Below are positions 3,396 through 48,035 of a stretch of DNA of 64,000 nt, in pieces (positions within the stretch are counted from its first letter, which is position 1; each line of letters opens with the position of its first letter). The stretch lies in NCBI RefSeq assembly GCF_009360615.1, contig NZ_SPEY01000007.1:1-64000 (forward strand), given 5' to 3'. The DNA is from Comamonas sp. Lineage in GTDB: Bacteria; Pseudomonadota; Gammaproteobacteria; Burkholderiales; Burkholderiaceae_C. The position numbers were made by a program, and so were the translations under genes. The notes beneath the pieces were generated by a model. It was not told where the DNA came from. It saw only the letters and a list, made by a program, of their open reading frames with translations, and ran no database searches.

Positions 3396-4193
3396 TCAGG
3401 CCAGCAGCCCGCAATGTCCGGCAATCAGGCGGCTGGCAATCCGGGCCAGATCGGGAGGCAGGCTTTGCTCGCAGGTGGTACGTATATCGCCGAGGGAGGG
3501 CCGGATCTGCAACTCCTGCGCATAGCTCAGCAGCTTTTCCGTGGCTTGCAGGCGGTGCACGCCTATGCCAGGGGCCGCCGCAGCAATGCGGTCCAGGTTC
3601 AGGCGCTTTTGTGCATCGCTCCAGCGCAGGGCCATGCGCAGCCGCGCGGGGGAGAATGCCGCGCGATAGCCGACCTTCTCGAACACCAGTGGCCGGGGCT
3701 CCATCACATCGCTGCGCGGCAGCAGGAACGAGAGCATCAGAGGCCGGTCCATGAGCTTGAGCGTTTGCGCCAGCGACTGCAGGTTGCCGTCCGTCAACTC
3801 GACCTGCGCATCCATGGCCAGCAATACCGGGCAGCAGTCGCCTTCGCCCCAGCCTATATTGCCGCCCAGGGTTCCCAGGCGGCGTACTCCCATGGCCCCT
3901 AGCTGGTCCAGGGCCTGGACGAGCACGGGGGCGTGCTGCTGAACCCAGGGGTGACGGCGCACGGCCTCCAGCCGCATGCCTGCACCGATGTGCAGATATT
4001 GCGGGCCGAGGTGGATCTGCTGCATCTCGGGCCAGTGCATCACATTGATGAAATGCGTGGCCGACGGCGCCAGGCGAGGCTCTGCCCATGACTGCTGCAG
4101 CAGCGTGCCCCCGGCGATGAAGCAGGCGGCATCGCCGAGCTTGCGGGCCAGGGCCTGCGCGGCCTGGGGTGACGAGGGGTGGGTAAGCAGCAT
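3396..4193 (-). CDS. Molybdenum hydroxylase FAD-binding subunit
   Basis: A 265-residue CoxM-type flavoprotein subunit. The FAD pyrophosphate motifs are visible as CFIAGGTLL (about 24-32) and LGTLGGNIGWGEGDCC (about 107-122), followed by a CO-dehydrogenase flavoprotein C-terminal domain. It accepts electrons from the 2Fe-2S subunit and passes them to NAD+ or another acceptor. A clear Shine-Dalgarno (AGGAGG, about 6 nt before ATG) supports the start. The deaminase gene ends 24 bp upstream and the Mo subunit starts 6 bp downstream, so it sits in the middle of the operon. Confidence 0.88.
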   Translation of the reverse strand: MLLTHPSSPQAAQALARKLGDAACFIAGGTLLQQSWAEPRLAPSATHFINVMHWPEMQQIHLGPQYLHIGAGMRLEAVRRHPWVQQHAPVLVQALDQLGAMGVRRLGTLGGNIGWGEGDCCPVLLAMDAQVELTDGNLQSLAQTLKLMDRPLMLSFLLPRSDVMEPRPLVFEKVGYRAAFSPARLRMALRWSDAQKRLNLDRIAAAAPGIGVHRLQATEKLLSYAQELQIRPSLGDIRTTCEQSLPPDLARIASRLIAGHCGLLA

Positions 4194-36287: not shown

Positions 36288-37262
36288 CTACTTTTCCTGC
36301 ATATGCGCTGCCTTGACGATCTCGCCCAGGCGCCTGCGCTCGGCATCGGCAAACTTCACGAATTCCGCGCGTGTGCCGCCGACCGGCTCGATGCCCAGTC
36401 CCTTGAGCTTCTCGACGGTGGCAGGCTCCTTCATGGCCTTGTCCACGGCGGCTGCCAGCTTGTCCAGAATGGCGGGTGGCGTGCCCTTGGGTGCATGAAT
36501 GCCGGCCCAGTGTGCGATCTGCAGATCGGCAAAGCCTTGCTCCACAGCAGTGGAGAGCTGGGGGTAGGCCGAGATGCGCTGTGTCCAGGTCGTGGCCAGA
36601 GGCTTGAACTTGCCCTCGTGAATGATGTGCGGCAGCGCGATGATGCTGGCTTCCGAGGTGCCTTCGACCTGGCCGCCCAGCACGGCCGTGGTGCTCTCCG
36701 AGCCGCTCTTGTAGGGCACGGGCTGCAGCCTGGCACCGTATTTCACATTCAGCATCTCGGCCACGAAGTGCGGCGTGCTGCCCGTGCCGGCGGTGGCAAA
36801 GTTGAAGCCTGCGCCCTTCTTCGAGGCTTCGACGAAGTCGCGCAGATTGTTGTAGGGCGCGTTCTTGGGCACCACGATCACCGAAGGTGCCAGACCGATC
36901 ATCACCACGGGCTGCAGGGCATCATCCTTGAAAGGCATGGTCTTCTTGATCATGCTGTTGGAGATGACGCCGGCTGCGCTGACCAGCAGCGTATAGCCAT
37001 CGGGCTGGGCCTTGGCCACGATATCGGCGCCCACGGTGCCGCCCGCGCCTGGACGGTTGTCGATCACCACGGGCTGACCGAGGATCTTGGAGGCGCCTTC
37101 GGCGGCCGATCGGGCCATCAAGTCATTGGCTCCGCCAGCCGAGAACGGCACCACGAGGCGAATGGGGCGCGCAGGCCAGTCGGCAGCCTGGGCCAGTCCT
37201 GCGGGGGCCATAACGGACAAAGCCAAGGCCTGTAGAACAAGATTGCGGCGGTTCAAAAACAT
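36288..37262 (-). CDS. Bug-family periplasmic receptor, first gene of sigma-54-controlled operon
   Basis: A 324-residue Bug receptor with signal peptide MFLNRRNLVLQALALSVMAPAGLAQA. It then has WPARPIRLVVPFSAGGANDLMAR and VIDNRPGAGGTVGADIVAKA. The start at 37262 has AGGAG 6 nt upstream. It heads an operon with a second Bug receptor and a C-C lyase. Its promoter is a strong -24/-12 element at 37306-37321, and the divergent gene encodes the likely activator. Confidence 0.9.
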   Translation of the reverse strand: MFLNRRNLVLQALALSVMAPAGLAQAADWPARPIRLVVPFSAGGANDLMARSAAEGASKILGQPVVIDNRPGAGGTVGADIVAKAQPDGYTLLVSAAGVISNSMIKKTMPFKDDALQPVVMIGLAPSVIVVPKNAPYNNLRDFVEASKKGAGFNFATAGTGSTPHFVAEMLNVKYGARLQPVPYKSGSESTTAVLGGQVEGTSEASIIALPHIIHEGKFKPLATTWTQRISAYPQLSTAVEQGFADLQIAHWAGIHAPKGTPPAILDKLAAAVDKAMKEPATVEKLKGLGIEPVGGTRAEFVKFADAERRRLGEIVKAAHMQEK

Positions 37263-37305
37263 CGGTATCTCCTGGATCCCCATTCATCGGGGTATGGCCT
37301 GTGAG

Positions 37306-37321
37306 CGCAAGCAGCGTGCCA
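37306..37321 (-). promoter_or_regulatory. Sigma-54 (-24/-12) promoter
   Basis: On the minus strand TGGCACGCTGCTTGCG matches TGGCACG-N4-TTGCW at all but the last position. GG and GC are separated by exactly 10 bp. The expected transcription start is near 37295, about 33 nt before the Bug receptor start. Confidence 0.85.
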
Positions 37322-37419
37322 GCAGGTCCAGGGGTAAACCCTTGGTGACTCAAGTGATTGAAATCATTGGGTTTCGGGGGGTGTTGCGCCACAGGTGGCA
37401 GGGCTTGTGTATTGAGTGG

Positions 37420-37455
37420 ATTTCATTGATGAAATAATTTCTTTCATGAATGAAA
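37420..37455. promoter_or_regulatory. Paired palindromes, likely activator binding sites
   Basis: Two inverted repeats, ATTTCAT-TG-ATGAAAT (37420-37435) and TTTCAT-GA-ATGAAA (37442-37455), have centres 21 bp apart, two helical turns. They lie about 132 and 153 bp upstream of the predicted sigma-54 start, a typical enhancer distance. The second overlaps the activator's own ATG, which suggests autoregulation. A weaker TGATT-GA-AATCA lies at 37355. Confidence 0.7.
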
Positions 37456-39455
37456 CATCACTGTTGCAGGGCTCTGGCGTCAAGCCTGTGCCGGCAGCCG
37501 GCCGGCAGCATCTTCCCCATATCGTGACCGTAGGCCGCTACCGTGTGGGGCGGGTGCTGGAGAGGCTGGCACAGCCCTGGTCGGGCGAGGCCAGGTTCTC
37601 GCATATCTCGGCCTCCTTCGACGATGCGGTGACCCAGGTGCAGGCGCTCAATCTGCGCCAGCCGATCGACGCCCTGGTCGGTGCAGGGGCCAGTGGTGCC
37701 TGGATTCGCGAGCGCGTGGACATGCCGCTGGCCATGGTCGAAGTGCGCGGCCTGGATCTGCTGCAGGCGCTGCGCCAGGCCAAGCTGCAGACCTCGGAGC
37801 AAGCCCCGCGCGTGGGCCTGGTCAACTTCGAGGTACCGTCGCCCGTGGTGGCCCAGTTCGACAGCCTGTTCGGCCTGGGTCTGGTGCAGTTCGCCTACCA
37901 GGGGCCGCATGATGCCCCGGCCTGCGTGCAAAAGCTCAAGGCTGCGGGCGTGGGGGCTGTGGTGGCGCCAGGTCTGGTGGCGGACCTGGCAGAGCAGGCG
38001 GGCATGGCCAGCGTGCTGCTGTATTCCGATATTTCGGTGCGTCAGGCGCTCAGCGACGCCATGCTGCTGGCCCGCCATCGACGCGCAGAGCGCGACCGGC
38101 ATCAACTCCTGGAGACCGTGCTGCATCAGTTGCAGGACGGGGTGGCGGCCGTGGACGAGCGCGGCCGCATCTGTGCGCTGAACCCGCGCATGGCGTCCCT
38201 GCTCGGGGCTCCGCTGGAAGCCTTGCATGGCCGCCTGCTGGACGAGGTGGCCCCGGCTCTGGGGTTGGTCCAGGCATTGGCCGGTGAGGAGGGCGGCGAA
38301 GAGGTGGTGCAACTGGCCTTGCGTACCCTGGTGGTGAGGCGTGCGCCGATTGTGGAGAACGGGCGGGTGACCGGCGCCTTGCTGGTCTGCCGCGATCCCG
38401 CCGTCATCCAGCGCGCCGATCGAAGCCTGCGTGCCAGCCAGCGGCAAAGAGCCTCGGCCGTGCGCTGGCGCATCGATGACTATCTGGGCCGCAGCGCTGC
38501 GGCCCAGCGCGTGCGTCAGCTGGCCAGGCAGTACGCGAACAGCGATGCCACGGTGCTCATCCTCGGCGAAAGCGGGACCGGCAAGGAGTTGGTGGCGCAG
38601 GGCATCCACGGTGCGGGGCGGCGTGCGGAGCAGCCTTTTCTGGCCGTCAACTGCGCAGCGCTCAGCGAAAGCCTGCTGGAGAGCGAGCTATTCGGTTACG
38701 AAGAAGGGGCTTTCACCGGGGCCAGGCGCGGAGGCAAGACCGGGCTGATCGAGGCCGCACATACCGGGACCCTGTTTCTCGATGAAATTGGCGACATGCC
38801 GCTTGCGCTGCAGTCGCGGCTGCTGCGCGTGCTGCAGGAGCGCGAGGTGCTGCGCGTAGGGTCCACCACCCCCATTCCTGTGGATGTCCGCGTGATTGCC
38901 GCCACCCATGCGGATCTGGCGGATCTGGTGGATCGCGGTCATTTCCGGCGCGATCTCTATTACCGGTTGGCAGTGCTGCGCCTGGACACGCCTTCGCTGC
39001 GAATGCGTGGTGCCGACGACATTGCGGAACTGGGCCGCTCCATGCTGGCTCAGCGCCTGAGCGCTGCAAACCGGCTGCCCCGCACACTGCATGACAGGGA
39101 GGAGCATCAGCTCGATGCGTTGCTTGCCAGAGCTGCGGGGCATGACTGGCCCGGCAATGTGCGTGAGCTGGACAATTGGGTGGAGCGTCTGCTGGCCTGC
39201 AGCGACTATCTGGCCCCGGACCGGGGAGGCCTTCTGGACATGGCGCGCCTGCTTGAAGTCTTCCCGGAGTGCGCCGACGGGCTGGCCTTGGACGAGCCGG
39301 CTGCGGCCCGCAGAGTGCAGCTCAGAGACACGCGCAGACTGGCCGAGCAGAAGCGGCTGCGCGAGGTGCTGGAGTCGGTCAACGGCGATCAGCGGCAGGC
39401 CTGCGAGATTCTCGGCATCAGCCGGGCCACGCTGTGGCGCCGCATGAAGGCCTAG
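37446..39455 (+). CDS. PrpR-like sigma-54-dependent transcriptional activator
   Basis: A 669-residue enhancer-binding protein. The N-terminal PrpR_N-type sensor (about 25-200) binds a small acid in relatives. A PAS domain (about 215-325) follows, then a complete AAA+ domain with Walker A GESGTGKE (374-381), the sigma-54 contact loop GAFTGA (421-426) and Walker [12 protein letters not shown]. The C-terminal Fis-type helix-turn-helix is [24 protein letters not shown] at 37416 would give a form ten residues longer. The divergent Bug-Bug-lyase operon has a perfect -24/-12 promoter, so it is the likely target. PrpR of enteric bacteria senses 2-methylcitrate; the ligand here is unknown. Confidence 0.88.
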
Positions 39456-40646: not shown

Positions 40647-41840
40647 TCAGGCCTGCAGCACCTCGGCCGGCACCCGTACCCAGCCTTCCATCAGAATGCG
40701 GGCACTGCGGCTCATCAAGGCCTTGGTGACCTGCCATTGGCCATGCTCGCTCCTGGCTTCTGCCCCCACACGCAGGCTGCCGCTGGGATGGCCAAAGCGC
40801 ACGGACTGGCGCTCGCCCCCGCCCGCCGCGAGGTTGACCAGCGTGCCCGGAATGGCGGCAGCCGTGCCGATGGCGACGGCTGCTGTGCCCATCATGGCGT
40901 GGTGCAGCTTGCCCATGGACAGCGCCCGCACCACGAGATCGATGTCCTCGGCGGCAATGGCTTTGCCGCTCGATGCGATATAGCTTTGCGCAGACGCCAC
41001 AAAGCCGATCTTGGGCGTGTGCTGGCGTGTGGCGGCTTCACCCAGATCCTTGATCAGGCCCATCCTGAGTGCACCGTGGGCGCGGATGGCCTCGAACCTG
41101 GCCAGTGCGGGGCCGTCGCCGTTGATGGCCTCCTGCAGTTCGCAGCCGGTGTACCCCAGCTCTGCAGCATCGAGAAAGACGGTCGGAATGCCGGCGTTGA
41201 TGAGGGTCGCGGAAAAGCGGCCGACGCCGGGCACATCCAGTTCGTCGCAAACATTGCCGGTGGGGAACATGGCGCCGCCATCCTCGCCTTCATCGGCAGG
41301 ATCCAGGAACTCCAGGGCCACTTCGGCAGCGGCAAAGGTCACGCCGTCAAGTTCGAAGTCCCCGGTTTCCTGCACCTGGCCGTCGCGGATCTGCACATGG
41401 CTGATGATGGTCTTGCCGATGTTGGCTTGCCAGATGCGAATGGTGGCCACGCCGTCGTGCGGAATCCGGTCGGCGGCAATCAGACCCATGTGAATGGCGC
41501 AGGGGCCGACGGCAGCGCTCAGGTTGCCGCAGTTGCCGCTCCAGTCCACCAAAGGCTGATCGATGGAGACCTGGCCGAACAGATAGTCGACATCGTGATC
41601 GGCGCTGGCGCTCTGGCTGAGGATCACGCCTTTGCTGGTGGAGGATGAGGCATTGCCCATGCCGTCAATCTGTTTGCCATAGGGGTCTGGGCTGCCCAGT
41701 GTGCGCAGAAAGATGGCGTCCCGAACGGGGCCGGGCTGCCGGGCCGCTGGGGGCAGATCCTGCAGGTTGAAGAACACCCCTTTGCTGGTGCCTCCGCGCA
41801 TATAGGTGGCGGGAATGCGGATTTGCGATGTGAAAGACAT
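40647..41840 (-). CDS. prpF: AcnD-accessory protein PrpF (aconitate isomerase-like)
   Basis: A 397-residue PrpF-family protein (diaminopimelate-epimerase-like fold). It opens with the hallmark PATYMRGGTSKGVFF, and has DWSGNCGNLSAAVGP with a conserved Cys and AGGGERQSVRFGHPSG. PrpF isomerises the AcnD product so that methylaconitate can be hydrated, and is required with AcnD for 2-methylcitrate dehydration. It is the last gene of prpC-gntR-acnD-prpF; 193 bp separate it from acnD. Confidence 0.93.
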   Translation of the reverse strand: MSFTSQIRIPATYMRGGTSKGVFFNLQDLPPAARQPGPVRDAIFLRTLGSPDPYGKQIDGMGNASSSTSKGVILSQSASADHDVDYLFGQVSIDQPLVDWSGNCGNLSAAVGPCAIHMGLIAADRIPHDGVATIRIWQANIGKTIISHVQIRDGQVQETGDFELDGVTFAAAEVALEFLDPADEGEDGGAMFPTGNVCDELDVPGVGRFSATLINAGIPTVFLDAAELGYTGCELQEAINGDGPALARFEAIRAHGALRMGLIKDLGEAATRQHTPKIGFVASAQSYIASSGKAIAAEDIDLVVRALSMGKLHHAMMGTAAVAIGTAAAIPGTLVNLAAGGGERQSVRFGHPSGSLRVGAEARSEHGQWQVTKALMSRSARILMEGWVRVPAEVLQA

Positions 41841-42033: not shown

Positions 42034-44661
42034 CTAGCGCACCAGTTCCGCCGCTGACGCGGGGGCGGCTGCGGTGCCTTGCTCCAGGAAGTCCAGGGCA
42101 AAGCGCTGCAGCACGCCGCCGGCCTCGTAAATCGAGACCTCTTCCGCGGTATCGAGACGGCACAGAACCGCTATCTCGATGCGGACACCCGTCGTGCGGT
42201 GGATCAGAAGTGTAAGCGTGGCCCGGGGTTGACGCCGGCCGATGACATCGAAGCTCTCGGTGCCATCCAGCGCCAGTGTATGGCGGCTTGTGCCGGACGG
42301 GAATTGCAGCGGCAGCACCCCCATGCCGATCAGATTGGTGCGGTGGATGCGTTCGAAGCCCTCGGCCACGATGGCTTCCACACCGGCCAGGCGCACGCCC
42401 TTGGCAGCCCAGTCACGGCTAGAGCCCTGACCGTAATCGTCTCCGGCAATGATGATCAGCGGCTGCTTGCGCTGCATATAGGTTTCGATGGCTTCCCACA
42501 TGCGCATGACCCGGCCCTCGGGCTCGACACGGGCCAGAGAGCCCTGGCGCACCTTGCCCTGCTCGTCCAGCACCATTTCGTTGAAGAGCTTGGGGTTGGC
42601 AAAGGTGGCGCGCTGTGCGGTCAGGTGGTCGCCGCGGTGCGTGGCGTAGGAGTTGAAGTCCTCCTCCGGCAGGCCCATCTGGTGCAGATATTCGCCGGCA
42701 GCCGAGTCCATCAGGATGGCGTTGGACGGCGAGAGGTGATCGGTGGTGATGTTGTCGGGCAGTATGGCCAGAGGGCGCATGCCGCGCAGCGTGCGCTTGG
42801 CGGCCAGCGCGCCCTCCCAGTAGGGCGGGCGGCGGATGTAGGTGCTTTGCGGGCGCCAGTCATAGAGTGCATCGACCTTTTCGCCCTGGTCTGAGCGGAT
42901 GGCAAACATGGGCTCGTAGACCGCGCGGAACTGCTCGGGTTGGACGGCAGCCGCATCCACGGCATCGATTTCCTCGTCGCTGGGCCAGATGTCCCTGAGA
43001 CGGATCTCCCGGCCCTGGAAGATGCCCAGCACATCGTTCTCGATATCGAAGCGGATGGTACCCGCAATCGCATAGGCCACGACCAGGGGCGGCGAAGCCA
43101 GGAAAGCCTGTCTGGCGTGGGGGTGGATGCGGCCGTCGAAGTTGCGGTTGCCCGAGAGAACGGCCGTGGTGCAGAGGTCACGTTCCACGATTTCCTGCTG
43201 GATGGCGGGGTCGAGAGCGCCGCTCATGCCGTTGCAGGTGGTGCAGGCAAAGGCCACCACGCCGAAGCCCAGTGCCTGCAGGTCTTGCAGCAGGCCCGCC
43301 TGCTGCAGATAGAGCGGCACGGTCCTTGAGCCGGGGGCGAGAGAGGTCTTGACCCAGGGCTTGCGCACCAGGCCCAGATTGCGTGCGTTGCGCGCCAGCA
43401 GACCGGCTGCGATCACATTGCGCGGGTTGCTGGTATTGGTGCAACTGGTAATGGCGGCAATGATGACCGCTCCATCGGGCATCTGGCCCTCGGTCTGCGT
43501 CCATTCACCGGCAATGCCTTGGGCTGTCAGTTCGCGGGTTGCCAGATGGGCGTGCGGATGGGAGGGGCCAGCCATGCTGCGCACGACGGCGGACAGGTCA
43601 AAGCCCAGCGTACGTTCGTATTCGGCATGCTCCAGGCTGTCCGCCCACAGGCCGGCCTGTCTGGCATAGGTTTCCACCAGCTGCACCTGGGCGGGCTCGC
43701 GCCCCGTCAGGCGCAGATAGGCGATCGTCTGCTCGTCAATCGCGAACATGGCGGCCGTGGCACCATATTCCGGCGCCATGTTCGAGATGGTGGCGCGGTC
43801 GCCGATGGAGAGGCTGCGCGCGCCTTCGCCATGGAACTCCAGATAGCAGCCCACCACTTTCTGCCGGCGCAGGAATTGGGTCAGGGCCAGCACGATGTCG
43901 GTGGCGGTGATGCCGGGTTGCCGCCTGCCCGTGAGCTGCACGCCCACGATCTCGGGCAGGCGCATCCATGAGGCGCGGCCCAGCATCACGTTCTCGGCTT
44001 CCAGTCCGCCCACGCCCACGGCGATCACTCCCAGTGCATCGACATGTGGCGTGTGGCTGTCGGTGCCCACCAGAGTGTCCGGATAGGCTTCGCCATCGAC
44101 AGCATGGATCACAGGGCTCAGGCGCTCCAGATTGATCTGATGCATGATCCCGTTGCCTGGCGGAATCACTTCCACATTCTTGAAGGCCTGCTGGCACCAT
44201 GCGATGAAATGAAAGCGGTCCTCATTGCGCCGGTCTTCGATGGCGCGGTTTTTCTCTAAGGCCTGGGGATCGTGACCGCCGCACTCCACGGCCAGCGAAT
44301 GGTCCACGATCAGTTGCACGGGCACTACGGGATTGACGGCGGCGGGGTCGCCGCCTTGCCTGGCAATCGCATCGCGCAGGCCGGCCAGATCCACGAGAGC
44401 AGTCTGGCCCAGGATGTCATGACAGACCACGCGGGCCGGAAACCAGGGGAAGTCGCGCTCGCGCTTGCGGTCGATGATCTGCACGAGGCATTCGTCCAGA
44501 ATGGCCGGGTTGCAACGGCGCACCAGGTTTTCGGCATGGACGCGGCTGGTATAGGGCAGTGTGTTCCAGCTGCCGGGGCGTATGGCCTCGACTGCAGATC
44601 GGGCGTCGAAGTAATGCAGCGCCGTTCCGGGCAAGGGTTGACGGTAGGGATGGTGGGTCAT
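42034..44661 (-). CDS. acnD: Fe/S-dependent 2-methylisocitrate dehydratase AcnD
   Basis: An 875-residue aconitase-superfamily enzyme. The [4Fe-4S] ligands are seen in SCTNTSNPRN and ACTTCNGMSGALDP, and the C-terminal swivel domain has GDDYGQGSSRDWAAKG. The N-terminus YRQPLPGTALHYFDARSAVEAI is characteristic of AcnD, not of AcnA. It dehydrates 2-methylcitrate in organisms that lack PrpD, working with PrpF. Start 44661 is by homology; longer ATG starts at 44685 and 44718 exist. Part of the prp operon. Confidence 0.94.
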   Translation of the reverse strand: MTHHPYRQPLPGTALHYFDARSAVEAIRPGSWNTLPYTSRVHAENLVRRCNPAILDECLVQIIDRKRERDFPWFPARVVCHDILGQTALVDLAGLRDAIARQGGDPAAVNPVVPVQLIVDHSLAVECGGHDPQALEKNRAIEDRRNEDRFHFIAWCQQAFKNVEVIPPGNGIMHQINLERLSPVIHAVDGEAYPDTLVGTDSHTPHVDALGVIAVGVGGLEAENVMLGRASWMRLPEIVGVQLTGRRQPGITATDIVLALTQFLRRQKVVGCYLEFHGEGARSLSIGDRATISNMAPEYGATAAMFAIDEQTIAYLRLTGREPAQVQLVETYARQAGLWADSLEHAEYERTLGFDLSAVVRSMAGPSHPHAHLATRELTAQGIAGEWTQTEGQMPDGAVIIAAITSCTNTSNPRNVIAAGLLARNARNLGLVRKPWVKTSLAPGSRTVPLYLQQAGLLQDLQALGFGVVAFACTTCNGMSGALDPAIQQEIVERDLCTTAVLSGNRNFDGRIHPHARQAFLASPPLVVAYAIAGTIRFDIENDVLGIFQGREIRLRDIWPSDEEIDAVDAAAVQPEQFRAVYEPMFAIRSDQGEKVDALYDWRPQSTYIRRPPYWEGALAAKRTLRGMRPLAILPDNITTDHLSPSNAILMDSAAGEYLHQMGLPEEDFNSYATHRGDHLTAQRATFANPKLFNEMVLDEQGKVRQGSLARVEPEGRVMRMWEAIETYMQRKQPLIIIAGDDYGQGSSRDWAAKGVRLAGVEAIVAEGFERIHRTNLIGMGVLPLQFPSGTSRHTLALDGTESFDVIGRRQPRATLTLLIHRTTGVRIEIAVLCRLDTAEEVSIYEAGGVLQRFALDFLEQGTAAAPASAAELVR

Positions 44662-44726
44662 GGTCTCGGGGGCCTCTCGGGGCATCAAGGGGGCGGGTCG
44701 GAGCTGAGGCGGCAGCACTGCGGGGA

Positions 44727-45170
44727 CTAGGGCTTCACTGGAGCAATGCCGGCTGTCCCCGACGCGGACATGAAAGCCTGGCTGGCCCGTTGCGAGCCCA
44801 GCGCCAGCTGCAGCCGCGCCAGGGACACGCGCAACAATTGTTCGCCCAGTTGCGTGCAGGCGGCAGGCGTCTGCCGTTGCTGCACCAGATGCCCGACCAG
44901 CAAGCGGCTTAGCAGGCAGGCCTCTGCCAGCTGGGCGGCACTGAGGCGGGTGACGCTCAACCCGCGCCGGGGCAGGGCCGTGAGCAGGCCTTCATGGCAT
45001 AGCAGCTTCATGGCCTCGCGCACGGGAGTGCGGCTCACGCCGAACTCCCTCGCCAGTGCGCCGTCGTTGAGGTCCGAGCCGGGCGGCAAACGGTGGCTCA
45101 GAATGCGCTCGCGCAGCTTGTCGGCGATGGCAATGCACAAGGAATGGACTTGAATGGGCTGGGCAGGCAT
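44727..45170 (-). CDS. Short GntR-family regulator inside the prp operon
   Basis: A 147-residue protein with the GntR winged helix: IADKLRERILSHRLPPGSDLNDGALAREFGVSRTPVREAMKLLCHEGLLTALPRRGLSVTRL (about 14-75). It has only about 70 residues after it, compared with the roughly 150 of a FadR/FCD effector domain. It may be a shortened FCD regulator or a truncated one. It lies 13 bp after prpC and 65 bp before acnD, on the same strand, so it probably controls the operon that carries it. Confidence 0.78.
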   Translation of the reverse strand: MPAQPIQVHSLCIAIADKLRERILSHRLPPGSDLNDGALAREFGVSRTPVREAMKLLCHEGLLTALPRRGLSVTRLSAAQLAEACLLSRLLVGHLVQQRQTPAACTQLGEQLLRVSLARLQLALGSQRASQAFMSASGTAGIAPVKP

Positions 45171-45183
45171 GGTGCGCAAAGGC

Positions 45184-46389
45184 TTACTCGCGGGCTTCGA
45201 TGGGAACGAACTGGAGGTCGTCCGGGCCCACATAGTTGGCGCTGGGGCGGATGATCCTGTTGTCCTGTCGCTGTTCGATGATGTGGGCTGCCCAGCCGCT
45301 GGTGCGCGCAATCACGAAGAGCGGCGTGAACATGGCAGTGGGCACGCCCATCATGTGGTAGCTGACGGCACTGAACCAGTCGAGGTTGGGGAACATGGCT
45401 TTCACCTCCCACATCACCGACTCCAGGCGCGCGGCAATGTCGTACAGCTTGGTGCTTCCGGCTTCCTCCGACAGTTTTCTGGCGACGCGCTTGATGACGG
45501 CATTGCGGGGGTCGCTCACGGTGTAGACCGGGTGGCCAAAGCCCGTCACGACCTCCCTGGCATCCACGCGGCGGCGAATGTCGGCCTCGGCTTCGGCCGG
45601 GCTGTCATAGCGCTTCTGGATCTCGAATGCCGCCTCGTTGGCGCCGCCATGCTTGGGGCCGCGAAGTGCGCCAACCGCAGCGGTAATGGCCGAATACATA
45701 TCGCTGCCCGTGCCGGCCACCACGCGGGCCGTGAAGGTGGATGCGTTGAATTCATGTTCGGCATACAGATTGAGCGAAGTATGCATGGCATGCACCCAGC
45801 TTTGGGAGGGGGGGGCGCCATGGAGCAGATGCAGAAAGTGCCCACCGATGGAGTCCTCGCTGGTTTCGACTTCGATGCGGCGGCCCGCGTTGCTGAAGTG
45901 ATACCAGTACAGCAGCATGGAGCCCAGGCTGGCCATCAGGCGGTCGGCAATATCGCGTGCGCCCGCAAGGCTGTGGTCGTCCTTTTCCGGCAGCGCGCAG
46001 CCCAGGGCCGAGACACCGGTGCGCATCACGTCCATGGGGTGGCTGGCGGCGGGCAGTTGCTCCAGCGCCGTCTTCACGCTGCCGGGCAGGCTGCGCAGAG
46101 CCTTGAGCCTGGCTTTGTAGGCCTTGAGTTCGGCCTGCGTGGGCAGCTTGCCGTGGACCAGCAGATGGGCGATCTCTTCAAACTCGCAGACCTCGGCAAT
46201 GTCCAGGATGTCGTAGCCCCGGTAGTGCAGGTCGTTGCCGGTCCTGCCCACGGTGCAAAGCGCGGTATTGCCTGCCGTGATGCCAGACAGGGCAACCGAT
46301 TTCTTGGCTGTGAAACCGGCCGAGGTGCTTGTCGGAATCTGCTGGCTGGCACGGCTTGCGGTGGCCGATGCCGTGGTTGCGGTGTGCAT
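45184..46389 (-). CDS. prpC: 2-methylcitrate synthase
   Basis: A 401-residue citrate-synthase-family enzyme. It has the conserved [38 protein letters not shown], catalytic His regions in [13 protein letters not shown] and [14 protein letters not shown], and the Asp-containing [12 protein letters not shown]. The pattern [13 protein letters not shown] and gene context favour PrpC (propionyl-CoA plus oxaloacetate to 2-methylcitrate) over GltA. AGGAG lies 6 nt before the ATG. First gene of the operon, divergent from the ScfR-like regulator. Confidence 0.93.
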
Positions 46390-46480
46390 GGGTGTCTCCT
46401 TGAAGTGGTGGTTTCGGACGCTGCATGGTCTGCGATACTTCGCAATCTACGCATTTGTTTTGTTGGCGTACATAGCTGAA

Positions 46481-46520
46481 TTGGCGAACATATGTGAAGA
46501 AAAATCCATATGTTTGCGAA
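46481..46520. promoter_or_regulatory. Large inverted repeat in the prpC/regulator gap
   Basis: TTGGCGAACATATG (46481-46494) pairs with CATATGTTTGCGAA (46507-46520) with 12 of 14 matches and a 12-nt spacer. A second TTTGCGAA follows at 46522-46529, and an inverted copy TTCGCAA lies at 46439-46445. These TTTGCGAA-type elements are likely binding sites of the adjacent ScfR/RamB-like regulator, controlling prpC and itself. Confidence 0.6.
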
Positions 46521-46559
46521 TTTTGCGAATTTCCAGGGCGACATTTAAGGAGCAAGCCA

Positions 46560-48035
46560 ATGGCCAAGACCTTCATGGGCGTACGCCTGCGCAGCCTGCG
46601 CGCCGAACGTGGGCTGACGCAGGCTGCGCTTGCACAGGCACTGGAGTTGTCACCCAGTTACCTGAACCAGATCGAGCAGGATCAGCGTCCGCTCACGGTG
46701 TCCGTGCTGCTCAGGATTCACAAGGTTCTGGGCGTCGATATCCAGCAGTTCTCAGAGGATGAGGAAGCTCGCCTGCTGGCGCAGCTGCGCGATGCGGTGG
46801 CAGCCATGCCTCTGACCGCAGGTGCGGTGCCGCTGCCCGAGCTGCGCGAGGTTGCGGCCAGGCTGCCACAGATTGCACAGACACTGCTGGCCATGCACCG
46901 GCGCCACCTGGCCGATGCCCAGCGGCTGGAAGCCTTGAGCGCCCATCTGGGTGACAGCCGTGCCGGTCAGGATGCAGGTGGCGCCGTCAAGGGCAAGCAG
47001 GCATTGAGCGGCTTGCTGACCGAGCCCTCGCGCCAGATGCCGTTCGAGACCGTACGGGACTTCTTTTTTGCCCACCGCAATTATTTCGATGGGCTCGATC
47101 GGGCGGCCGAATCACTGGCTCGGCAGGCCGCGGAGCAAGGTGCTCATCTGCAGGACTGGCTGCAAGACCGGCTGCTGGCGCGGCATGGGGTACAGGTCCT
47201 GCGCGCCCCTGCGCGAAGCGCCGAGACGGCCGGCAGCCATAGGCGCTACGATGCGGCCACACGCACCCTGCATGTGGCAGCGCAGCTCAGTCCCATGCAG
47301 CAGGCATTCCAGCTGGCCACGCAGCTGGCGCTGCTGGAGTTTGATGTGCTGATCGCCACGGAGCTGCGCGGCGCGCCCTGGCAGGACGAGGCCACGCGGC
47401 GGCTGGCGCGGCTGGGACTGGCCAACTATGTGGCAGGGGCGTTCCTGCTGCCATATGGCGAGTTCCTGCATGCTGCCGAGGGCCTGCGCTACGATATCGA
47501 CCTGCTGGCCAGGCGTTTCGGCGTGGGCTTCGAGACCGTCTGCCATCGCCTCTCCACCCTGCAGCGCGCCGATGCACCGGGGGTGCCGTTCTTCCTGATT
47601 CGTGTGGACCGGGCAGGCAATATCAGCAAGCGCCAGTCGGCCACGCATTTCCACTTCTCCAAGACCGGCGGCACCTGCCCGTTGTGGGGCGTGTACGAGG
47701 CCTTTGCCCAGCCGGGACGCATCGTGCCCCAGCTCGCCAGCATGCCCGACGGGCGGATCTACCTGTGGGTGGCCCGCACCATCAGCCATGGGGGCCCGGG
47801 GTGGGGAGCGCCGGGCAAGACCTTTTCCATCGGCCTGGGCTGTGACTTGCAGCATGCAGCACGGCTGGTGTATTCCCAAGGCATGGATTTGCGCAATACC
47901 GCCGCTGCGACTCCCATCGGCATGGGCTGCAAGGTCTGTGAGCGCGGCGCTTGCCCGCAACGCGCCTTTCCCTATGTGGCTGCCCCTCTCAAGGTCAATG
48001 AAAACGAGAGCGGTTTCGTGCCCTATGGCGGTTAG
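46560..48035 (+). CDS. ScfR/RamB-like short-chain fatty acyl regulator
   Basis: A 491-residue regulator with an N-terminal XRE helix-turn-helix (about 8-62: LRSLRAERGLTQAALAQALELSPSYLNQIEQDQRPLTVSVLLRI). A central IrrE/ImmA-like domain (about 210-330) has lost the HExxH metal site. The DUF2083/ScfR C-terminal domain has three clustered Cys (GMGCKVCERGACP). Relatives include RamB, which controls acetate and propionate genes. AAGGAG is 7 nt before the ATG at 46560. It is divergent from prpC with a large inverted repeat in between, so it is probably the propionate-responsive controller. Confidence 0.88.
   Translation: MAKTFMGVRLRSLRAERGLTQAALAQALELSPSYLNQIEQDQRPLTVSVLLRIHKVLGVDIQQFSEDEEARLLAQLRDAVAAMPLTAGAVPLPELREVAARLPQIAQTLLAMHRRHLADAQRLEALSAHLGDSRAGQDAGGAVKGKQALSGLLTEPSRQMPFETVRDFFFAHRNYFDGLDRAAESLARQAAEQGAHLQDWLQDRLLARHGVQVLRAPARSAETAGSHRRYDAATRTLHVAAQLSPMQQAFQLATQLALLEFDVLIATELRGAPWQDEATRRLARLGLANYVAGAFLLPYGEFLHAAEGLRYDIDLLARRFGVGFETVCHRLSTLQRADAPGVPFFLIRVDRAGNISKRQSATHFHFSKTGGTCPLWGVYEAFAQPGRIVPQLASMPDGRIYLWVARTISHGGPGWGAPGKTFSIGLGCDLQHAARLVYSQGMDLRNTAAATPIGMGCKVCERGACPQRAFPYVAAPLKVNENESGFVPYGG

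Follow-up and report, generated by a model that had tools for sequence, protein, structure and literature searches.

A candidate three-site operator array between prpC and a PrpR/MccR-like ScfR regulator gene in Comamonas sp.

Genes and regulator at the methylcitrate locus

The window, i.e., the whole stretch of Comamonas sp. DNA analysed (64,000 nucleotides), carries three methylcitrate-cycle genes on the minus strand: prpC, encoding 2-methylcitrate synthase (45184–46389; NF009006, 709 bits, cut-off 550), acnD (42034–44718; TIGR02333, 1708 bits, cut-off 1420), and prpF (40647–41840; TIGR02334, 723 bits, cut-off 441). They are adjoined, as in the MccR/PrpR class, by a plus-strand gene encoding an ScfR regulator of 491 amino acids (46560–48035; PF09856, PF06114, and HTH matches). 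The divergent gap between prpC and the regulator gene (46390–46559; 170 bp) is A+T-rich relative to its surroundings, with a G+C content of 0.43 in 46400–46549. A longer in-frame start of the regulator is possible at a GTG (46494); the proteins of relatives align from the ATG at 46560.

By its sequence, the regulator is a PrpR/MccR-like ScfR protein, with the XRE-type HTH, IrrE-like domain, and ScfR C-terminal domain of that class. The solved structures of Mycobacterium tuberculosis PrpR were matched over residues 57–490 (E 9.7e-116), with 179 of the 328 aligned positions identical, counted from residue 160 on; the HTH is missing from the solved chains and so lies outside this comparison. The four Fe-S cysteines of the class are present (C373, C457, C460, and C465), and were invariant in all 161 aligned relatives (one further locus was left out). 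The equivalents of PrpR Phe155, Phe240, His319, Arg338, Lys347, and Lys410 are identical in the regulator; Lys217 is replaced by His, which counts against the interpretation favoured below. Phe155, which has been proposed to select the acyl group in M. tuberculosis and is a His in RamB (PMC6765138), corresponds to F162, again as in the MccR/PrpR class. This position is Phe in most relatives with prpC first (34 out of 44) or a thioesterase gene first (60 out of 71), His in 8 of the 13 paralogues facing a methylmalonate-semialdehyde dehydrogenase (MmsA) gene, and Tyr in 5 of the 6 facing a mutase gene. RamB, put forward in the original prediction as the precedent, proved to be the more distant one: M. 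tuberculosis PrpR, whose operator is also this 17-bp tandem, matches more closely, and the regulator, with its Phe instead of His, scored 576 bits against the RamB model NF038139, below the cut-off of 700, so that an identity as RamB was rejected. A single ScfR gene was found in the assembly (93% complete).

Two other regulator-like genes lie nearby. A sigma-54-type PrpR is encoded about 7 kb from the gap (37416–39455, plus strand; TIGR02329, 543 bits, cut-off 499). A sigma-54-like site with one mismatch (37306–37321, minus strand) points at the neighbouring TctC-type gene, located beside this PrpR gene (36288–37283, minus strand). Sigma-54-like sites are not enriched in the window as a whole (14, versus a chance mean of 18.6). 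The two unrelated propionate regulators, sigma-54 PrpR and ScfR, may divide the work at this locus. Between prpC and acnD, a GntR-like open reading frame (44727–45311, minus strand) matched only the DNA-binding family PF00392 in Pfam. As listed, it overlaps the end of prpC, and in several relatives acnD directly follows prpC, leaving no room for it; it is perhaps a remnant.

Three sites in the gap and their conservation

The gap holds three TTTGCRAA-type sites, which span about 90 bp. Site R (46513–46529, plus strand), a probable operator, is an exact tandem of period 9, TTTGCGAA-T-TTTGCGAA, with copies at 46513–46520 and 46522–46529; the second of these had been pointed out as an extra motif in the original prediction. 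This is the TTTGCRAA-n-TTTGCRAA form of MccR/PrpR operators, and 46513–46529 is the only exact match to TTTGCRAANTTTGCRAA in the 5.26-Mb assembly. Site M (46483–46498, plus strand) is a looser tandem, GGCGAACATATGTGAA, with two mismatches to the consensus GGCGAAnnnTTGCGAA, and is likewise a probable operator. Site L (46439–46453, minus strand; TTCGCAATCTACGCA) is an inverted tandem without mismatches, and a probable operator over the putative prpC start; it includes the TTCGCAA already noticed at 46439, which occupies 46439–46445.

The bare words are not beyond chance. TTTGCGAA was found twice in the window, versus a mean of 1.2 in shuffled sequences (33 out of 100 shuffles reached two), and TTGCGAA five times, versus 7.7 expected. 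Their arrangement is beyond chance: an 8/8 tandem of period 9 was reached in 7 out of 2000 dinucleotide shuffles of the 170-bp gap. A scan of both strands of the assembly for a wider regulon, with the 17-mer and up to 3 mismatches, gave 101 matches, versus 64 for the reversed control.

ScfR loci were taken from three sources: 250 genomes of the family, of which 115 gave a match of some kind, often a short one to the HTH (58 of the 59 long matches entered the counts; a partial match in genome G186 was left out); 398 genomes of the phylum, 98 with a match, which contributed 24 new loci (L069–L092); and the best 80 of 281 named records. The 162 loci are not independent, since they include some records twice (e.g., L002 and L094), and the 80 named loci were therefore used for the main count. 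Sites were accepted with up to 2 mismatches for L and up to 3 each for M and R. Among the best 80 of the 281 named loci, L was present in 77, M in 73, R in 78, and all three in 72, compared with 5, 52, 17, and 0, respectively, in 800 shuffled regions. The start-to-start spacings L–M/M–R in the 72 full arrays were 44/30 bases in 58, 44/29 in 11, 43/30 in 2, and 44/31 in 1. All three sites were found in 41 of the 58 family loci, and 31 of those 41 had the 44/30 spacing. Where the array is present, its internal spacing is fixed, while R starts roughly 18 to 88 bases before the regulator gene. Comparison of the prpC–scfR gap in relatives, proposed along with the original prediction, supports its central idea: most of them have the TTTGCRAA boxes again, at the same distances. 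One record with a full array and a 74% identical ScfR protein among the Comamonadaceae matches is titled Pantoea sp. 18069 (L101); this title may be mistaken, or the record a mixture.

A column profile of 77 of the best 80 named loci was anchored on L, and the conservation of L in it is therefore partly by choice. It exhibited conserved islands at L (TTCGCAATnTACGCA), M (GGCGAAnnnTTGCGAA), and R (TTTGCRAAnTTTGCRAA), as well as a CTGAA between L and M. This CTGAA (TTCAG on the minus strand; profile columns 37–41) marks a candidate −35 of prpC (46476–46481, minus strand), located 17 bases from a candidate −10 (46453–46458, minus strand; columns 14–19). TATTTT is the consensus of the latter in relatives, where it overlaps the edge of L in most cases; it is poorer in the window, in which no consensus promoter was found. 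From its sequence, the CTGAA/TATTTT pair would be a weak, activator-dependent prpC promoter. M would then lie immediately behind the −35 and R some three helical turns beyond M, and L would cover the start.

The occurrence of the L–R distance of 72–75 bases speaks against a general rule. Of the thioesterase-first loci 69 of 71 have it, as do 44 of 45 prpC-first and 6 of 6 mutase-facing loci (where it is 73–74 bases), 3 of 5 acnD-first loci, and 4 of 22 others. It was kept in only 2 of 13 MmsA-facing loci, which counts against the favoured interpretation. A distance of 73–74 bases is common to the ScfR paralogues facing mutase-like genes (L042 and L045–L048) and MmsA-like genes (L049 and L050). 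The mutase and MmsA neighbours were named from the look of their translations, with no family model, and the thioesterase from a Pfam 4HBT match in a single case.

In many relatives (L134, L110, L139, L195, and others) the operon begins with this 4HBT (hotdog) thioesterase gene, which is not found at the first place of the operon in the window. In 57 of the 66 thioesterase-first loci with L, the distance from L to this gene's start codon is two bases, so that the leader, if the start is as supposed, is very short; this suggests an almost leaderless message. A coding constraint on L, which can be read as LRKLRS before the thioesterase start codon, was rejected, because its variable base is at the second codon position and the third positions are invariant (in rows chosen by L).

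Users of the sites

Exact copies of the sites mostly accompany ScfR genes. In the 250 family genomes, L was found 36 times (reversed-pattern control, 3), with 32 copies within 200 nt upstream of an ScfR gene, and R 21 times (control, 2), with 17 copies so placed. Of the other copies of L, two lie before prpC (L195 and L196) and two had no prp gene found adjacent (L194, as well as L193, which lies 77 bases from the end of a contig); those of R comprise one before prpC (L198) and three elsewhere. In genome G215 (L195), L, M, and R at 44/30 precede a thioesterase–prpC operon with no ScfR gene in the 8 kb examined; its ScfR gene lies elsewhere in the genome, itself behind an array (L021). In genome G096 (L198), a prpC–acnD operon with no ScfR gene in the 6.5 kb examined is preceded by the array at 45/30, in which M and R are perfect and L is weak (3 mismatches), and the one long ScfR match found in this genome faces an MmsA gene (L054). 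These arrays before prpC without an adjacent ScfR gene argue that the array is tied to the prp promoter and does not serve autoregulation alone. Four loci with the array (L021, L101, L158, and L161) gave no prp gene in a search of 1500 nt upstream. The suggestion that a TTTGC/GCAAA code is shared with actinobacteria is well supported by comparison: the boxes reappear with constant spacing in the majority of close relatives, and they also stand before prpC in the two loci without an adjacent regulator.

Taken together with the regulator's identity, the sequences make it very likely that L, M, and R form an operator array of the PrpR/MccR-like ScfR protein, which would control prpC. The two mismatches of M and the poor −10 in the window are weak points of this reading. 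Its strongest rival, which we regard as possible but clearly less probable, is that the regulator binds M and R only, whereas L belongs to the core promoter or the start region or is bound by a different protein. L is far less variable than M and R, if in profile rows chosen by L, and the candidate −10 overlaps its edge. Moreover, a prpC–acnD operon in genome G232 (L196) keeps L (4021–4035) with M and R absent, in a genome where no long ScfR match was found, so that L may persist after loss of the regulator or have another function. However, L is itself an inverted copy of the tandem with a 9-base period, and in the mutase-facing paralogues, which keep its distance to R in every case, its second half is nearer to the standard box.

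It is very improbable that the sites serve the sigma-54 PrpR or the GntR-like reading frame instead, even though both are encoded nearby. L and R track ScfR genes across genomes, and no sigma-54-like (−24/−12) match with up to 2 mismatches was found upstream of prpC in 46390–46559. PrpQ is a propionate regulator of the GntR type; here, no sensor domain accompanies the PF00392 match of 44727–45311 in Pfam, the only match being to a DNA-binding family. Both candidates were rejected on these grounds.

The extended inverted repeat pointed out in the original prediction exists in the window: the 14-nt arm pair with 12 matches is the core of 16-nt arms (46479–46494 and 46507–46522) with 14 of 16 positions (88%) complementary, a level reached in none of 300 dinucleotide shuffles of the gap. 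It is unusual in this sequence, yet not common to relatives. In 60 of the best 80 of 281 named loci (20 were excluded for an M–R spacing other than 30 or too weak a site), the same register paired at a mean of 7.8 out of 16 positions (maximum 12), and its inner CATATG part, through which it links the M box to the R box and which is mostly absent from relatives, at 1.95 out of 6. The repeat was thus rejected as the conserved unit. That it functions itself, as a single palindromic operator or an RNA hairpin, is the least probable reading of all, as TTTGCRAA-type boxes are near-palindromes on their own, no terminator-like site was found, and 46300–46700 gave no Rfam match up to E 1, on which basis an RNA element or terminator was also rejected.

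Proposed switch and relation to known ScfR systems

With L, M, and R taken as operators of the ScfR protein, control would depend on propionyl-CoA. In the absence of this signal, prpC would be kept off by a regulator tetramer occupying L, which would cover the start region, as well as M or R. Propionyl-CoA would fill the CoA pocket, and the regulator would then act from M, behind the weak −35, and from R, recruit RNA polymerase, and switch prpC on. R probably, or at least possibly, also serves autoregulation of the regulator's own gene. The closed state over L and the active state on M and R are modelled on proposals for RamB and PrpR: the M. tuberculosis PrpR tetramer has been proposed to change shape with propionyl-CoA (PMC6765138), and Paracoccus denitrificans RamB to switch from a tetrameric repressor to a dimeric activator on binding acyl-CoA (PMC10370305). 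The exact division of labour among the three sites is tentative, and we give it somewhat less than an even chance.

Neither the tandem code nor the regulator family is new. A DNase I footprint of M. tuberculosis PrpR covers 25 bp with TTTGCAAA and TTTGCgAA one base apart (PMC3420887, PMC6765138). Site R shares this sequence and spacing, i.e., two 8-bp boxes in 17 bp, and the two systems also have in common the protein family, the pocket residues, and the divergent arrangement of regulator and methylcitrate genes (prpR–prpD in M. tuberculosis). According to the available text of these sources, the mycobacterial locus has one 17-bp element, whereas here three sites, one of them inverted, stand at fixed spacing over about 90 bp, and the downstream genes are prpC, acnD, and prpF. 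P. denitrificans RamB is likewise an ScfR protein with two near-identical boxes and control by an Fe-S cluster and a CoA ester; unlike the present array, its boxes are described as 18 bp apart and its target is the glyoxylate operon (PMC10370305). MccR is named as an ScfR class in the same paper, MccR-type ScfRs have already been predicted in alphaproteobacteria, and deletion of mccR in Rhodobacter capsulatus is described as leaving growth on propionate with CO2 unaffected, which counts against the favoured interpretation. The fixed three-site layout, partly common to paralogues facing other propionyl-CoA genes, appears to be new: no description of it was recognised in the open-licence literature, covered mostly by title and the start of the abstract, and an earlier one is possible.

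Propionyl-CoA assimilation in Rhodobacter sphaeroides reportedly involves a further protein, PccR, which Carter and Alber are said to have described, along with classes of ScfR, in 2015. Its TTTGCAAA boxes and its role in propionyl-CoA metabolism resemble the present system, whereas its boxes are said to be four bases apart and to have pccB as their target.

In the field, it is unsettled how ScfR tetramers that carry an Fe-S cluster and an acyl-CoA convert their binding at operators into repression or activation. A wider idea, which we advance with considerable doubt, is that the layout with an inverted L covering the start, M abutting the −35, and R behind, with starts 44 and 30 bases apart, would be a wiring rule for ScfR regulators in these proteobacteria. 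The tetramer would bridge L and R to repress and shift to M and R with acyl-CoA, and the geometry would be kept by paralogues at methylmalonyl-CoA mutase and some methylmalonate-semialdehyde dehydrogenase genes. Across dozens of environmental bacterial species, the operator geometry varies by hardly a base, which leads to direct predictions: a repressing site, an activating site, and a half-turn insertion that would break the switch. It also ties the DNA code of mycobacterial PrpR to betaproteobacteria.
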